In this document: positions 2,157 through 43,911 of the stretch, piece by piece
How the letters are laid out: the number at the start of each line of letters is the position of its first letter
Numbering within the stretch: position 1 is the stretch's first letter
Source of the DNA: a virus
IMG/VR virus record: IMGVR_UViG_3300044695_002640
Span: 1 to 45,508 of that record
Direction: 5' to 3' (one strand)
Length of the DNA stretch: 45,508 bases
The notes under the pieces: generated by a model
What the model was told of the DNA's origin: nothing
Seen by the model: the letters and a program-made list of their open reading frames with translations, nothing else
Database searches by the model: none
Position numbers and translations under genes: made by a program

Positions 2157-2968
2157 TGGTATTCTCCTTTCAGAGTCTTACGATACTGAACCCATCCCTC
2201 GCCAAAATTACCTTCAAACTCTGGTCCAGAGTAATGCACAGACTGAGCAACATGCTCAAACGGACTGAAGTGCTTACTAGCCAACAGTCGATCATGCAGA
2301 TCAATATCCGCCTGTACGTCTCTCCTGCCATCGTGAGTTAGATACGAAATCCTCGCGTTTCGACCAACTGACACCTTCACCTTATCTTCATCACTCAGAA
2401 ATTCATCACCCTCAAAACCGATCAATGGGAGATGCCATTGTCCCGCAGATAGTTTCTGAGGAACAGATTGACTACGTACCTCACGAGCCATACCAGCTAT
2501 CTTCTGAATATGTGGTTCAGCCTCATGATGACATCTCAGAGCAAAGAAGTTATTCCAAGCCCCTTCATTGCCAGTCACGATGACTGTGATCCACATCCAA
2601 GGCTCAAGGATACGATTGACAATCTGTTTGTGGAGACCTAGATTAAGTAACTTACGAACATGCTTCAAAGCATCCCGTCTTGCTTCAATCCATGCGTATC
2701 TACAATCAATCTTTTCGTAGTACCCAAGCTCCTCGTACGCCTGCATTCCCTTCTGAGCCTTACCCCAGTGAATAGGGATAACAGGATTCTTCTCCACCTG
2801 TTCAATCATCTTCTCTACAGGTATGGCACGACTGGATGCAGCATTCCTGCTGAACATCCTGTGCGTCATCACTTCACTATGGATGAACCGTGGATAGGTC
2901 AACTCCATCGTCGTCAACCTGTTGTCACAGGTATTGGTACTGTCTGCAAGTACCTTGGCACTAAACAT
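2147..2968 (-). CDS. thyX: Flavin-dependent thymidylate synthase ThyX
   Basis: 273 residues, a usual ThyX length. The signature H36-R-x-x-S-x-N-x-x-S-x-R47 (in THRMFSRNAASSRAIP) matches the ThyX flavin and dUMP-binding motif. A CHHEAEPHIQKIA helix and a C-terminal SVGRNARISYLTHDGRRD block with KHFSPFEHVAQ are typical of the family. It makes dTMP from dUMP using FAD and methylene-tetrahydrofolate, supplying thymidine for phage replication. The first base of its AGAAAGAG-preceded ATG overlaps the stop of a small upstream gene (ATGTTTAG), so it is translationally coupled. It shares a leftward operon with the purine dNTP pyrophosphohydrolase-like gene. Confidence 0.92.
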   Translation of the reverse strand: MFSAKVLADSTNTCDNRLTTMELTYPRFIHSEVMTHRMFSRNAASSRAIPVEKMIEQVEKNPVIPIHWGKAQKGMQAYEELGYYEKIDCRYAWIEARRDALKHVRKLLNLGLHKQIVNRILEPWMWITVIVTGNEGAWNNFFALRCHHEAEPHIQKIAGMAREVRSQSVPQKLSAGQWHLPLIGFEGDEFLSDEDKVKVSVGRNARISYLTHDGRRDVQADIDLHDRLLASKHFSPFEHVAQSVHYSGPEFEGNFGEGWVQYRKTLKGEYQCQ

Positions 2969-3143
2969 CTCTTTCTCCAGAAACAGTTAAGGGGCTGCCA
3001 CCAACGAACTGTATCATATTCCCTAGAGCAGTCAACAGTCTGTTACACATTTCTTGTACACTATCTGTACACATCGAGGCTCTAGGATCGCTTATAGGCT
3101 CCTGTAGCCATTGGTCGACTCTCAGGTCATCCTGACAATCCAA
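2961..3143 (-). CDS. Small hypothetical protein leading the thyX operon
   Basis: 60 residues if started at 3143; a start at the internal ATG (MCTDSVQEM) would give a shorter form. It overlaps thyX by eight bases in the ATGTTTAG arrangement, which argues that it is real. No family recognised. It has a helical middle (DSVQEMCNRLLTALGNMIQF) and an acidic N-terminus rich in Asp and Gln. It would be the first gene after the gene-free regulatory region, so a leader peptide coupling translation into thyX is also possible. Coding status is moderately supported. Confidence 0.45.
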   Translation of the reverse strand: MDCQDDLRVDQWLQEPISDPRASMCTDSVQEMCNRLLTALGNMIQFVGGSPLTVSGERDV

Positions 3144-3227
3144 TTGCTTCCTAGGCCTATCCTGTGCGACGAGAGAGGCATATCCGTGGTATGTGCCGAC
3201 TGCAGTGACAATCTGTAGGTATTTTTA

Positions 3228-3264
3228 GACAAGTGTTGACAAGTCGTAACGATGCTGCCATACT
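3228..3264 (+). promoter_or_regulatory. Promoter with overlapping direct-repeat operator
   Basis: TTGACA at 3236-3241, 17-base spacer, CATACT at 3259-3264. The heptamer GACAAGT occurs twice with a 10-base period (3228-3234 and 3238-3244), the second copy overlapping the -35 box. This looks like a two-site operator on one face of the helix. It points rightward into the structured gene-free region. Confidence 0.5.
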
Positions 3265-3270
3265 GATGGC

Positions 3271-3545
3271 GTCGAGGTAAAGCCACAAGCTACTGGCGTC
3301 TGTCTCGGTGTCACCACGGAGGAAGTGTTGCTGAAACTTTCGTGATAGGTGACATTAAATCAAGTATCACTTGAACAGCAAAGGATCAGACTCCAAGAGA
3401 ATTCCCGCTTAACCGCGTGGGAACCTACGGAGGGTTTAGGATCAGCTTAATGGACTACAACGTTACACTTACAGTTGCTACTGTAGTCTTCTAGGTAAAT
3501 GATCTTACTATAGACCTTCAGGTGTAACACTAATTGATTACACCT
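3271..3545 (+). ncRNA. Candidate structured noncoding RNA
   Basis: The stretch from 3144 to 3603 holds no convincing gene. Downstream of the promoter I find a run of self-complementary pairs. TTGCTG 3328-3333 pairs CAGCAA 3376-3381, enclosing GTGATA 3342-3347 with TATCAC 3365-3370. GATC 3384-3387 pairs GATC 3440-3443, enclosing CTCC 3391-3394 with GGAG 3429-3432 and the hairpin TTCCCGC/GTGGGAA at 3402-3423. GACTACA 3453-3459 pairs TGTAGTC 3482-3488, and AGGTGTAA 3520-3527 pairs TTACACCT 3538-3545. The nested order suits one folded RNA of about 275 bases. A replication origin or packaging site is the alternative. No known RNA family recognised. Confidence 0.4.
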
Positions 3546-3603
3546 ATCAGTTTATGGTGCTACTACTGGCAGTAATACGTTCTCCGCCCCCATGGAGAAG
3601 TTC

Positions 3604-4290
3604 ATGCCCAATCATCGTGTCCTTGTTATCCCCGACCTTCATTGCCCCGGTATGTTATCTTCTTTCCCAGAATTTCTTCAGGGGATTTATGACAAATACC
3701 GATGCAATAAGGTCGTCGCCATTGGTGACATTGCTGACTTCCACTCCATGTCTTACCATGAGCAGATGCCTAACCTGCGTTCGGTAGACGATGAAGTTAC
3801 TGCCACTCAGGAACAGCTTGCTGAAGTCACCAGAAGATTTCCTAAGGCAGAATACCTGAAGGGTAATCACTGCTGCTTAATTGAGCGTAAGGCTGTTACT
3901 GCCGGATTATCCGCCAGCCTTGTACGTCCGATCAACGAGATACTGAATCTTCCTCGTGGTTGGAAAGCATATCCTCGCTACCACAAGCTCATCATCGACG
4001 ATGTGATCTACACGCACGGAGACGCTGCTAAAGGCGGTCAGTTTGCTGCGTTGAAGACTGCTCAGGCAGAGCACATGAGTGTCGTTATGGGTCACCTGCA
4101 TAGCCAATCAGGTGCTTGGTATTACGCCAACGAACGAAGCCGCATATTCGGCTGTGCGACAGGTTGTGGTATCGACCGAGAGGCTTTGCAGTTCTCTTAC
4201 GGTATCAAATTCCCAACCAAACCGATCATATCCTGTGCTGTGATACTTGACAAAGGTCGTCTACCGATTGTGGAAACCATGTACCTGTAG
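3604..4290 (+). CDS. Calcineurin-like metallophosphatase
   Basis: Started at the ATG at 3604 (228 residues) rather than 3592, because GGAGAAG stands six bases before it. All metallophosphatase motifs are present in order: PDLH (D11, H13), GD (D42), GNH (N88, H89), H138 in THGD and GHLH (H164, H166). These bind two metal ions and hydrolyse phosphoesters. Phage members have been linked to nucleic-acid or nucleotide phosphate removal, but the substrate cannot be read from sequence. It is the first gene after the structured gene-free region and is followed twelve bases later by a small metallopeptidase-like gene. Confidence 0.85.
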   Translation: MPNHRVLVIPDLHCPGMLSSFPEFLQGIYDKYRCNKVVAIGDIADFHSMSYHEQMPNLRSVDDEVTATQEQLAEVTRRFPKAEYLKGNHCCLIERKAVTAGLSASLVRPINEILNLPRGWKAYPRYHKLIIDDVIYTHGDAAKGGQFAALKTAQAEHMSVVMGHLHSQSGAWYYANERSRIFGCATGCGIDREALQFSYGIKFPTKPIISCAVILDKGRLPIVETMYL

Positions 4291-36240: not shown

Positions 36241-36756
36241 ATGTTTGATTACAAGCACTACAGTTCCTTGGACGAAATGCTCACTGACGAAGGTTACTTG
36301 TTGAAGAAGCGAATTATGCTGCTTACGCGTATTGCGATTAACGAACGTGGGTGCTGGAATTACACACGTTACTGCGATCCAGAAGGAAGGGCAAAAACAC
36401 AGATAGGGTACAAGAGTATCCCAACGGCTAGACTATCCTATATCGTGTTCAAGAAGAGACCAATCGGCAACAAATTCGTGTGCCATAGTTGCGACAACCC
36501 TTCGTGCATAAATCCCGAACATCTATGGTTAGGAACGCACCAGGACAACATGGCTGACAGAGACGTGAAAGGAAGATGTCAGAGACCGACTGGTACTAAG
36601 AACAATAAGTGCAAACTTACTGAAACCCATGTACGGGAAATACGGCTACTACGCAGCACGGGGTTGTCTTACTCCGCTATTTCTCGTAAATTCAATCTCA
36701 GTGCAGTTCATGTGCGTCACATCTGTCTGCGGCACAATTGGAAGCATGTAAAATGA
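36241..36756 (+). CDS. HNH endonuclease with C-terminal helix-turn-helix
   Basis: 171 residues. The HNH core is FVCHSCDNPSCINPEHLWLG followed by THQDNMADRDVKGR, and the C-terminal LSYSAISRKFNLSAVHVRHI is a helix-turn-helix. It is a paralog of the gene at 26952. It is inserted right before the DNA polymerase gene, a favourite site of homing genes, and its stop overlaps the polymerase start (ATGA). It starts soon after the terminator and has no evident strong promoter of its own. Confidence 0.87.
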   Translation: MFDYKHYSSLDEMLTDEGYLLKKRIMLLTRIAINERGCWNYTRYCDPEGRAKTQIGYKSIPTARLSYIVFKKRPIGNKFVCHSCDNPSCINPEHLWLGTHQDNMADRDVKGRCQRPTGTKNNKCKLTETHVREIRLLRSTGLSYSAISRKFNLSAVHVRHICLRHNWKHVK

Positions 36757-39494: not shown

Positions 39495-40892
39495 ATGAAC
39501 ATTATTGATCTTATCAAAGCCTCCCTTGTCGAAGTTAGACTCGACGAGGTTGTTTCCATTCAACCCCAGCAGTGCGATTCGTTCGATAGACTGATGGACA
39601 TCTACAATCAGGACATGGTGATCACTGAGTCACTGAAGGACTGCTTGGCCATCTGCATGTCTATCCATATCGCTGTGGCACTGGACGGAGACCCTCTCTG
39701 GTTGTACCTAGTTTCCCCGCCATCAGGTGGTAAGTCCACTGTATGCGATCTGATATGCTCAGATGAGATTCACTCAACACCATTGGACTCACTGACTGGT
39801 ATCATCTCAGGAGATCGTAACGGGAAGCACCTTGTACCCTTGATGCAAGGTAAGTGTGTAGTGATCAAAGACGGAACACTATTGCTGGAGTCCAACCCTC
39901 TGCAGCTTGCCAACGTATTTGGAGAGTTACGCTCCATCTACGACGGGTCATTGGTCAAGCATTTCCGTAACGGTGTATCCGCGAACTTCTCCAATATCTC
40001 TTTCGGTATGGTGATTGGTATCACCGAGAAAGTATACAGCCTAAACATGGCAGCACTCGGTGAACGCTTCCTTCACTGTCGTCTGGAGACAACCAGAGAG
40101 ATGGAGAAGGTACGCAACGCTAATGCTGTCAAAGGTGTATTCGAGCATACGGCTAAAACCAGCTTCGAAGGTAATGATGCTGGCGACAGTCGATCCTTCC
40201 CTAAACAGCGAGCATTCACAGCAGGCTTCCTGTCCCATCTTCATTCCACTCTCAGAAACAACGACATCCTGCGTCCGGGTTACACTGACCATGACGTAGC
40301 CCTGATCCAATCCCTCGCTGACATGATCGCCTGTAGCCGTGCTCAGGCACCTCGCAGCAAGGAGTTCGGCTCCAGTGAACTGCTCTACGATGCTCGACCA
40401 GAAGCTTCTACCCGTGTTGTAAAACAGCTTAGTCGTCTAGCCTTATGCCTGTGCTACGTACTTGGTACTACCGAGATTACTCAACGGATTCGTGTACTGC
40501 TGACCAAGGTTGCACTGGACACAGCCTTCAGTCGGCAGCATAATATCATACGAACTGTAGCACTGGCTGAGAGCGGTCTGACACGACAATCCATCGCTGT
40601 ACTAACCTCTATTCCACTAGAAACTATTACCCGACGTATCGACGATCTGATCTCATTGGGCATTCTCATCCCCAACGATACAGATCATCGCCCTGTTCGT
40701 GGTCGCACAGTACCAACCCTCAAGTGTGCTCGCTGGATTCAGGATGCCTTCAGATTGGTAGAACAACATGTCGAAGCCGGTCTATCCGACAGTCAAGATC
40801 AAGAACCCAAACCGAAGAGACCAACCCCTAGTGGAAAAGGTCGCAGTTCACAAGCGACGGGGAAGAACAAAAGACCGAATGCGAATACTTGA
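39495..40892 (+). CDS. AAA ATPase, putative replicative helicase
   Basis: 465 residues. Walker A is LVSPPSGGKST (about residues 72-82), preceded by a DGDPLWLYLV strand. A likely Walker B/sensor region is KCVVIKDGTLLLE, and an arginine-finger-like region is NMAALGERFLHCRLET. Near the C-terminus a winged-helix pattern (LTRQSIAVLTSIPLETITRR) precedes a basic low-complexity tail (PKPKRPTPSGKGRSSQATGK). Position after polymerase and primase makes a helicase or loader likely. Family not firmly identified. Confidence 0.65.
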   Translation: MNIIDLIKASLVEVRLDEVVSIQPQQCDSFDRLMDIYNQDMVITESLKDCLAICMSIHIAVALDGDPLWLYLVSPPSGGKSTVCDLICSDEIHSTPLDSLTGIISGDRNGKHLVPLMQGKCVVIKDGTLLLESNPLQLANVFGELRSIYDGSLVKHFRNGVSANFSNISFGMVIGITEKVYSLNMAALGERFLHCRLETTREMEKVRNANAVKGVFEHTAKTSFEGNDAGDSRSFPKQRAFTAGFLSHLHSTLRNNDILRPGYTDHDVALIQSLADMIACSRAQAPRSKEFGSSELLYDARPEASTRVVKQLSRLALCLCYVLGTTEITQRIRVLLTKVALDTAFSRQHNIIRTVALAESGLTRQSIAVLTSIPLETITRRIDDLISLGILIPNDTDHRPVRGRTVPTLKCARWIQDAFRLVEQHVEAGLSDSQDQEPKPKRPTPSGKGRSSQATGKNKRPNANT

Positions 40893-41073
40893 ACGCGATG
40901 GTTTCACTTGTCAGGTATGTGGTGAGTCATATCCTGAAACATTTCTTAATGCAGACCACCGTGTACCTATTGAAGCAGGTGGAAGTGATGAGGACAGTAA
41001 CTTACAGACACTCTGTATTCTGTGCCACAGAAAGAAGACTGATAATGAACGAGAAAGAAGACGCATAAGATGA
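40768..41073 (+). CDS. Classical HNH endonuclease
   Basis: 101 residues. Core: ILERDGFTCQVCGESYPETF, ADHRVPIEAGGSDEDSNLQT and LCILCHRKKTDN, the standard PF01844-type HNH with two CxxC zinc sites. The start is uncertain: ATG 40768 lies 125 bases inside the helicase gene, while ATG 40879 would shorten it to 64 residues but lose the basic HKRRGRTKDRM lead that is typical of the family. The long form is kept. The region encodes two proteins in different frames. Overlaps the next HNH gene by ATGA. Confidence 0.8.
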   Translation: MSKPVYPTVKIKNPNRRDQPLVEKVAVHKRRGRTKDRMRILERDGFTCQVCGESYPETFLNADHRVPIEAGGSDEDSNLQTLCILCHRKKTDNERERRRIR

Positions 41074-41642
41074 CACCCATTCAACAAGGCGAAGCTTTTC
41101 GCGATCAACGCAGCAGGTACCACGCAGTATTCAAGTGCCAATACTGCAATAACAACTTTATCAGTACTATTTGCGACATTGCTAACGGTCGCGTAAAGTC
41201 GTGTAAATGCCGTTATCACAGAATGACTAATAGTCCAGAATACGAATCTTGGACTGCGATGAAGACTCGATGCCTGAACGAAAATTGTCCTGAATATGTA
41301 CACTACGGGGAAAGAGGTATAACCATATGCGAAGAATGGCTACTCTCATTCAAAACATTTTATGCTGACATGGGACCAAGACCAGAAGGCACCACTCTTG
41401 AGAGAATTGATAACAACGGTAACTACTGCCCAGAGAACTGCAGATGGGCTACTGCCATAGACCAAGGTAGAAACAGAAGAAGTACACTGAACTTAACATT
41501 TAGAGGCGAAACACATTGCCTCGAAGAATGGAGTATCCGCAGCGGAATTGGGCAGTCGACTCTCTCACAAAGATTGAAACTAGGTTGGTCTGTCGAAAAA
41601 GCGTTAACAACACCAAACAGAGAAGGAAGGAAGTTACTATGA
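41070..41642 (+). CDS. HNH endonuclease, zinc-finger type
   Basis: 190 residues. An N-terminal zinc-binding part (FKCQYCNNNF, CKCRYH) is followed by YESWTAMKTRCLNENCPEYV, HYGERGITICEEWLLSF, and the HNH core TTLERIDNNGNYCPENCRWA. A C-terminal helix-turn-helix (IRSGIGQSTLSQRLKLGWSV) completes it. It is a paralog of the gene at 43333; both flank the lysis genes. Likely a homing endonuclease. The ATGA overlap with the holin gene ties expression to the lysis cassette. Confidence 0.85.
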   Translation: MTPIQQGEAFRDQRSRYHAVFKCQYCNNNFISTICDIANGRVKSCKCRYHRMTNSPEYESWTAMKTRCLNENCPEYVHYGERGITICEEWLLSFKTFYADMGPRPEGTTLERIDNNGNYCPENCRWATAIDQGRNRRSTLNLTFRGETHCLEEWSIRSGIGQSTLSQRLKLGWSVEKALTTPNREGRKLL

Positions 41643-42491: not shown

Positions 42492-43336
42492 CATGGCATT
42501 TTACTGGTTACGATCCACGACGTGAAGACCGAGCAGCCCTCTCTGCTCAGTGTATCAAGTTTGATATCATGTCCCTCAACTGTTCGGGAGACATTCCTGA
42601 CACACGAGGAATCAAAGACTTGATGCGACGAGACGATCAGGCACAGATGAACTCATGTGCTGGCTTTGGTCTCACCAACACTGCTGAAGTCTGCCATTAC
42701 AACCAGACTCACGCATGGCGACAGTTCAACCCACTGTGGTCTTATCGCCGTGGTCAGGAAGTCTCTGGTATCCGAGGAGACAATGGGGCCACCATCGACG
42801 GTGTAGTATCAGCAGGCAAGAAGGTAGGTTGTCTGCCAGAAGACATCGACAACGACGGTAAGGCTGAGTACCCGTACAAAGTCGACTACAACTTTGCTTT
42901 TCCCAGAGACTGTTATGACATCGCTGCCAACTGGACGATTGGCTACTCGATCGAACTACGAGGCTTCGACCAGATCCTACGCTTCCTGCAGACAGGACAA
43001 GGAGCAGTAGTCGTCGGAGGTGCATGGGGGAATTGGAAATTAGACTCTAAAGGTATCGCTCGCAAGTTTGTATCTGGTGGAGGTGGACACGCACGCTGCT
43101 TGTGCGACTGGATTACCATCGACGGTGTCGTCCATCTCGTAGAAGCCAACAGTCATTACAAGACCTATGGCGACAACGGCTTTGCCTACCACACCAAGCA
43201 GTTCGTCGACAGTCAGGCACAAGACAAGTGGACTGTCACCATCGGCTGCTCAGACCTCAAGACTCCAGAACCAAGAAAAGTTGATTGGCAATCTGAGTTA
43301 GTATTCATTCCTGATAATCCACTAGGTGTTGCATGA
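42488..43336 (+). CDS. Papain-family (C1) cysteine peptidase, candidate endolysin
   Basis: 282 residues. The catalytic elements are Q51/Q53 and C57 in DQAQMNSCAGFGLTN, H201 in GGGGHARCLCDW and N221 in VEANSHYKTYG, the complete papain-type set with oxyanion Gln. No signal peptide or propeptide. It lies directly after the holin and lysis membrane gene, where an endolysin is expected, and I see no other peptidoglycan hydrolase in the window. A peptidase that cuts crosslinking peptides, or a protein-based cell wall, would fit. A virion or host-protein target is the alternative. Confidence 0.75.
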   Translation: MTWHFTGYDPRREDRAALSAQCIKFDIMSLNCSGDIPDTRGIKDLMRRDDQAQMNSCAGFGLTNTAEVCHYNQTHAWRQFNPLWSYRRGQEVSGIRGDNGATIDGVVSAGKKVGCLPEDIDNDGKAEYPYKVDYNFAFPRDCYDIAANWTIGYSIELRGFDQILRFLQTGQGAVVVGGAWGNWKLDSKGIARKFVSGGGGHARCLCDWITIDGVVHLVEANSHYKTYGDNGFAYHTKQFVDSQAQDKWTVTIGCSDLKTPEPRKVDWQSELVFIPDNPLGVA

Positions 43337-43911
43337 GCGTAAAAACTGGTGTGACAGAAATGAGAGGTAAACGCAGGTACGCAGAGTACCAATGCGGCTG
43401 CGGAGCTAAGTACTTTGTCCGTAACGACAAAAGTAAATCTGACTCATGTGGGTGTGTACCTGTTAATACTCGACACGGTATGAGCCGCACACCAACATGG
43501 TTGTCGTGGAAAAGCATGTGGACACGATGTACTGACGACAAAGGAAAAGACGCCGATAGTTACGTGAACCGTGGGATAACTGTTTGCGACGATTGGGTAC
43601 TATTCGAAAACTTTCTAACAGATATGGGGACTCGACCAAACGGCACATCCTTGGACCGCATAGACAATGACGGTAGCTATTGTCCAGAGAACTGCAGATG
43701 GGCTACCGCAACCGATCAGGCAAACAACAAACGCAATACGATCTACGCCACTATTGACGGACAAACCAAACCTTTGACAGTATGGTGTAAAGAACTGAAT
43801 ATCGTAAGCCACAGTACTGCCCTCAAAAGGATAGAGGCAGGCTGGTCAGCAGAGAAAGCAGTCACACATCCTGTACGTCAGATACGAACTAAAGTCACAC
43901 AGAAAGCCTAA
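43333..43911 (+). CDS. HNH endonuclease, paralog of 41070 gene
   Basis: 192 residues. N-terminal zinc-type segment YQCGCGAKYFVRNDKSKSDS, then TWLSWKSMWTRC, SYVNRGITVCDDWVLFENF and the core TSLDRIDNDGSYCPENCRWA. The C-terminal part (LNIVSHSTALKRIEAGWSAE) is a helix-turn-helix. It shares the domain order and many identical positions with the gene at 41070. Overlap of the peptidase stop is ATGA. Presumed homing endonuclease. Confidence 0.85.
   Translation: MSVKTGVTEMRGKRRYAEYQCGCGAKYFVRNDKSKSDSCGCVPVNTRHGMSRTPTWLSWKSMWTRCTDDKGKDADSYVNRGITVCDDWVLFENFLTDMGTRPNGTSLDRIDNDGSYCPENCRWATATDQANNKRNTIYATIDGQTKPLTVWCKELNIVSHSTALKRIEAGWSAEKAVTHPVRQIRTKVTQKA

Follow-up and report, generated by a model that had tools for sequence, protein, structure and literature searches.

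The window analysed in this study (45,508 nucleotides) is a 45.5-kb IMG/VR virus record from an uncultured tailed phage, and the contigs of its phage group come from lakes. It carries genes for terminase, portal, and head proteins, a PolA-type polymerase, a primase-like protein, and many HNH proteins, at least five HNH endonuclease genes being present in 45 kb (1644-2156, 36241-36756, 40768-41073, 41070-41642, and 43333-43911). No close cultured phage was found in INPHARED, where the best TerL matches were ~32% identical to the window TerL, and a TerL search of genome contigs returned no relative, so that no host was assigned. Five relatives of the window TerL (L161, L162, L167, L168, and L169) are interrupted in frame by ~317-354 extra codons, placed precisely between residues 130 and 131 (with which TerL of L168 is a single 950-aa ORF); this insertion, missing from the window TerL, is probably an intein.

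The locus considered here has the order ThyX (minus strand), candidate RNA element, metallophosphoesterase (plus strand), with thyX at 2147-2968 as the left neighbour and the metallophosphoesterase gene (PHROG 221) at 3592-4290 as the right neighbour. The interval 3228-3545 had been assigned to a gene-free region in the initial annotation, and indeed no gene model fits it, all plus-strand ORFs of the RNA body being 33 aa or shorter. On the thyX side, a promoter-like sequence for this gene (TTGACT-16-TACAGT, 3035-3008, minus strand) diverges from the promoter of the RNA and is also matched in L002, L006, and L009, three of the related viruses described below. Upstream of it, noncoding positions 3055-3200 are ~90-96% conserved among the window, L002, L006, and L007 and hold several palindromic pieces (CCTAGAGC/GCTCTAGG and ATAGGC/GCCTAT). 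This stretch may serve as an operator or encode another RNA; when it was evaluated as a second RNA, its consensus fold was weak (-10 kcal/mol).

A scan with ThyX located this slot in another five distinct IMG/VR viruses, namely L007, L002 (with the near-identical L003), L006, L008, and L009, and in every relative found the element occupies this slot in the same orientation. The sequences fall into three types: type A (the window and L007, 99.5% identical over 3265-3452), type B (L006, L008, and L009, which can be aligned with each other), and type C (L002/L003). There is no usable sequence similarity between types, as a consequence of which similarity searches miss relatives and the RNA is recognisable by fold alone. 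Scanning further with the phosphoesterase, and with a sequence pattern, brought up the same contigs only, plus one distant phosphoesterase; a type B model run over ~1.2 Mb of loci and 15 whole viral records recovered known members only, with L002 as a marginal 12-bit match at the right place and type A missed by sequence; and DNA pattern scans likewise returned known members, the large extra set produced by a short pattern yielding no further convincing one. In L168, a TerL relative whose contig reaches the region, the ThyX/phosphoesterase slot is absent and the descriptor matches looked like chance. Other RNAs were encountered in these surveys: L010 and L011, whose ThyX is related to that of the window, have, upstream of thyX, a tRNA-Gln and after it a match to tmRNA (2580-2952, plus strand), and L006 has an Rfam int-alpA RNA match above the gathering score (2291-2357, minus strand).

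The left end of the element is marked by a sigma-70-type promoter, TTGACA-17-CATACT (3236-3264, plus strand), which had been recognised initially and matches 10 of 12 consensus bases with a TG ahead of the -10 box. TTGACA is kept in 6/6 aligned sequences, and the 17-base spacing and xATACT are common to the window, L002, L006, and L007. L008 has TTGACA-17-CATGAT. The promoter expected of a stand-alone small-RNA gene, a 10/12 sigma-70-type match, is conserved in the window, L002, L006, and L008; in L009 it is weak, with a poor -10 box. A terminator-like hairpin followed by a T run (CTGCAGTGACAATCTGTAG GTATTTTTAG, 3200-3225, plus strand) lies just 5' of the promoter and is also present in L006. 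The GACAAGT direct repeat reported to overlap the promoter does exist in the window (3228-3234 and 3238-3244). Its downstream copy, however, reads GACAGAA in L002, L006, and L007, and by this sequence comparison the repeat is not a conserved feature.

Downstream of the promoter, all types can form a common topology in which helix P_a encloses hairpin P_b, a helix P_c crosses P_a by pairing with a partner beyond the 3' strand of P_a, and the loop of P_b pairs further downstream as P_d. The helices had been described as nested; the conserved core is instead doubly pseudoknotted, and ordinary (pseudoknot-free) folding cannot show it. In the window (all plus strand), P_a pairs TGTCACC (3309-3315) with GGTGACA (3348-3354) as a perfect 7-bp inverted repeat; P_b is the hairpin AAGT-GTTGCTGAA-ACTT (3323-3339), nested in P_a; P_c pairs GTGATA (3342-3347) with TATCAC (3365-3370), across P_a; and P_d pairs TTGCTG (3328-3333), within the P_b loop, with CAGCAA (3376-3381) to form the second pseudoknot. 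An A-rich linker (TTAAATCAAG, 3355-3364) joins the 3' strands of P_a and P_c and is 10 nt long in 5/5 distinct sequences. The topology was seen first in type B and then found in types C and A, where the sequence does not align. Type A thus uses UGUCACC/GGUGACA (P_a), AAGU/ACUU (P_b), and GUGAUA/UAUCAC (P_c); type B uses CAUCG/CGAUG, CAGG/CCUG, and a crossing helix such as UCGCAUCA/UGAUGCGA; and type C uses CGUCUCC/GGAGACG, CAGG/CCUG, and GGCC/GGCU, the P_b strands of relatives being CAGG/CCTG or CAAG/CTTG at the DNA level. P_d comprises 6 bp in the window (UUGCUG/CAGCAA), L002 (UCAGUC/GACUGA), and L009 (ACAUGU/ACAUGU), 4 bp in L006 (GCAU/AUGC), and 3 bp in L008 (GCA/UGC).

The inverted repeats were confirmed, the perfect 7-bp ones at 3309-3315/3348-3354 (P_a) and 3453-3459/3482-3488 (GACTACA/TGTAGTC) and the 8-bp AGGTGTAA/TTACACCT at 3520-3527/3538-3545, but the last of these lies outside the element. 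The 3' hairpin GACTACA...TGTAGTC (3453-3488, plus strand) starts a right flank that is shared with relatives, and is present in L002 and L007. The right boundary originally drawn at 3545 could not be maintained: no helix to the right of 3488, the 8-bp hairpin included, is shared by the near-identical L007 and, judged by sequence, none belongs to the RNA element.

Folding energy gave a divided answer. The interval originally delimited folds better than shuffled sequence (z -2.9, 1/100 shuffles), but the body alone (3271-3488) does not stand out (z -0.59, pseudoknot-free); the window minimum free energy is driven by flanking hairpins and is therefore not the real evidence. The RNA bodies of relatives reach z -2.6 to -4.1 in the same pseudoknot-free terms. 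With an ordinary body energy, right-hand hairpins that are not shared, and a broken GACAAGT repeat, the case must rest on comparison. When the topology was scored against dinucleotide shuffles, 0 of 1000 reached the score of the window, L002, L008, or L009 and 1 of 1000 that of L006, the topology having been defined after viewing the same sequences, with types A and C only partly held out. When 2.74 million strand-bases of phage DNA were scanned, the window and L007 ranked at the top, and the window score of 23 was unmatched by unrelated sequence, about two dozen unrelated matches scoring 20 or more.

Covariation had been suggested as a check, and compensatory changes are indeed seen in type B. 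In a MAFFT alignment of type B built from sequence alone, 94.9% of cells pair and both sides change in 7 pairs (shuffled mean 2.7, with 0/500 shuffles reaching 7 and slid versions giving zero), and five helices are backed by compensatory changes within the type. It should be noted that this covariation rests on few events, because the three types comprise no more than five distinct sequences, and that an alignment with helix cells chosen for complementarity shows 100% pairing by construction and carries no evidential weight. In type B, P_d competes with a 5' closing helix (GCGUGUU/AACAUGC), and RNAalifold by itself misses P_d and offers this competitor. Consensus folding prefers the sense strand only modestly (-54 vs. 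-47 kcal/mol), and the strand assignment consequently rests on the promoter and terminator. Taken with the retained TTGACA and the absence of any Rfam match, the shared topology and compensatory changes in relatives bear out the original description of an undescribed structured RNA behind its own promoter.

The 3' part of the element is a hairpin, P_e, with a G-rich 3' strand (3385-3443, plus strand), which is folded in all members and flanked in each by two copies of a type-specific motif. In the window these are GGATCAG at 3383-3389, ahead of P_e, and at 3439-3445, 56 nt after the first copy (both plus strand); in L002 the motif is GAGCATAAAGC, again with copies 56 nt apart; and in type B it is AACGGTCACA, AACAGTCACAA, or AATGGTCACA, with copies 97-101 nt apart. 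The type A repeat contains the palindrome GATC, able to pair copy 1 with copy 2 across P_e, and in the modelled structure such pairing may explain the direct repeat of type A, though not those of types B and C. Targets of the repeat motifs elsewhere in the phage were no more frequent than chance. A third copy of GAGCATAAA was observed in L002 (~3090-3250; L170 3993-4147), 88 nt upstream of the repeat pair and within the type C 5' hairpin. In type B, the tip of P_e is formed by a terminator-like hairpin and its U run: L006 contains an intrinsic-terminator match inside P_e, and ACAAGCC-N6-GGCUUGUUUUUAUU in L008 and GCAAGCC-N6-GGCUUGUUUUUACU in L009, as read from the sequence, occupy the same place. 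Types A and C show no clear terminator. The type B hairpins would thus complete an arrangement of promoter, RNA, and terminator, i.e. an entire small-RNA gene.

A G-rich strand in such a position could also belong to a primer RNA at a replication origin. ColE1 RNA II is a structured primer transcript, and in a mechanism of this kind an R-loop formed by the G-rich P_e strand would prime the PolA-type polymerase, with the sequence types acting as incompatibility groups. The site lies at a point of divergent transcription, all types combine the G-rich 3' strand with a flanking direct repeat, and the phage carries DNA polymerase A and primase genes; against this, there is no skew inflection at the site or other evidence of an origin at the element, no AT-rich unwinding stretch was noticed, the iteron-like repeats number just two and are short, and the phage has its own primase-like protein. 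We regard an origin primer as improbable.

An indication of how the element evolves comes from closely related phages. The cassette (3265-3452, plus strand, with a transcript start inferred near 3271) is replaced as a block: L007 and L002 have in common their 5' flank, as far as the -10 box, and their 3' flank from GACTACAGCTAGTCAC on, HNH gene included, and despite these common flanks the RNA is of type A in L007 and of type C in L002. Phosphoesterase alleles are distributed differently, being 99.6% identical between the window (A) and L002 (C), 99% between L007 (A) and L006 (B), and only 55% between the window and L007 (both A), such that the type of RNA is not linked to the allele downstream. 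Since the flanks are shared and RNA type does not follow the allele, the exchanged unit is the RNA itself, from after the -10 box to ~3452. Identical flanks around a swapped RNA body point to diversifying selection on an RNA.

This independence weighs on the possibility of a 5' leader that acts in cis, as a riboswitch or an attenuator, on a rightward operon starting with the metallophosphoesterase gene. Such a leader would agree with the position of the RNA, upstream of and co-directional with that gene in all members, with the terminator-like hairpin between RNA and gene in type B, and with direct repeats that permit alternative pairing of a P_e strand. Nevertheless, the linkage of RNA to gene that characterises a riboswitch or cis-leader is not observed, as type and allele occur in independent combinations and RNA and phosphoesterase are separated by an HNH gene in L002 and L007; moreover, types A and C are without a terminator, and riboswitch cores conserve ligand-binding sequence, unlike the three types, which share almost none. 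We therefore consider a leader unlikely. Cassette replacement, together with the homing endonuclease genes, also marks the slot as a recombination hot spot, as would be anticipated of a double-stranded DNA site (for packaging, replication, or recombination) with hairpins that are not RNA, or that arose by chance. Helices that cross and show compensatory changes are left unexplained by a pure double-stranded DNA site, and a constant linker across unrelated sequences and scores reached by 0-1 in 1000 shuffles add to the case against it, making a DNA site or chance hairpins very improbable.

Searches against known families placed the element in none of them. Rfam gave no match to the window at gathering thresholds and none in 2900-3700 at E<=10; in the elements of L002, L006, L007, L008, and L009, Rfam 15 (including tmRNA, group I intron, ribozymes, riboswitches, pRNA, GOLLD/ROOL, and HEARO) likewise gave none at gathering, and at E<=10 there was none in the L009 element and only two chance snoRNA matches outside the core in L002. 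No match to the element was obtained by blastn against phages and plasmids, and no tmRNA or tRNA-like domain by ARAGORN. Among the proteins scanned there was no reverse transcriptase (retron/DRT) and no IscB, TnpB, or Cas effector, the neighbours being ThyX, HNH_3-type homing endonucleases, and the phosphoesterase. The pRNA of phi29 is a phage-encoded structured RNA of about 170-200 nt, similar in size to our element, which differs in topology, has no Rfam match, and lies between the genes of the small and the large terminase, with further genes intervening.

Three other systems provide the closest ideas, none of which is a membership. ToxI is a small RNA of phages or plasmids that lies downstream of a promoter and forms an H-type pseudoknot with an A-rich crossing loop (PMC8860590), and our element resembles it and phage pseudo-antitoxins in its promoter, its pseudoknot with an A-rich linker, and its diverse sequence types sharing one fold (PMC8860590). 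It differs in its internal hairpin and second pseudoknot, in a single, large core of ~75 nt (vs. a ToxI unit of roughly 32-36 nt) with no tandem array detected by TRF in 2900-3700, and in having downstream no ToxN-like endoRNase gene but a phosphoesterase without a PADLOC match. With Racr RNA-based anti-CRISPRs (PMC10651486) it has in common a promoter-proximal small phage RNA, presumed to act in trans, with short repeats beside a hairpin; unlike Racr, it is pseudoknotted and contains no recognised CRISPR-repeat-like unit, and its direct repeats, of 7-12 nt, are shorter and more widely spaced than a CRISPR repeat unit would require. It is accordingly very unlikely that the element mimics a known class, be it a pseudoknot RNA resembling type III antitoxins or an anti-CRISPR RNA with a solitary repeat. 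Phage regulatory sRNAs (PMC12197685) similarly combine a promoter with a structured intergenic RNA, as does our element, with a terminator in type B; our element differs from them in a double pseudoknot that is kept without sequence and in its replacement as a cassette, and no Hfq-type or seed feature was established in it.

On balance, its own promoter, the type B terminator, the rigid fold, the independence from neighbouring genes, and the sequence replacement agree better with a trans-acting RNA under diversifying selection than with either a leader or a site in DNA. Judging from these comparisons of sequence, it appears reasonably likely that the region encodes a stand-alone structured small RNA of a new family, which would act in trans by binding a component of the host, of a defence system, or of a rival phage. 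Host RNA polymerase would start the RNA at the TTGACA/CATACT promoter (~3271), giving a transcript of ~180-220 nt that would fold into the compact double pseudoknot (P_a/P_b, with P_c crossing and the P_b loop pairing downstream), followed by P_e between its motif copies. The rigid RNA would then bind and occupy the host or defence component, or the counterpart of a rival phage, and its fold would be kept while its sequence is swapped wholesale between near-identical phages, we propose because the partner to be matched keeps changing. The RNA is thus probably a trans-acting decoy or scaffold in conflict with host or rival, the replacement pattern being the one feature that suggests a decoy.

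To our knowledge, few phage RNAs have specific anti-host roles, and most were found through similarity to known classes. We suggest, more speculatively, that the element may represent a new class of RNA by which phages counter defences or exclude one another, in which selection keeps a doubly pseudoknotted scaffold and the entire sequence is exchanged between near-identical phages as an allelic cassette. If true, this would be a cassette exchange like that of specificity genes, but in RNA alone, and the types would be predicted to differ in the host, defence system, or co-infecting phage against which they act.
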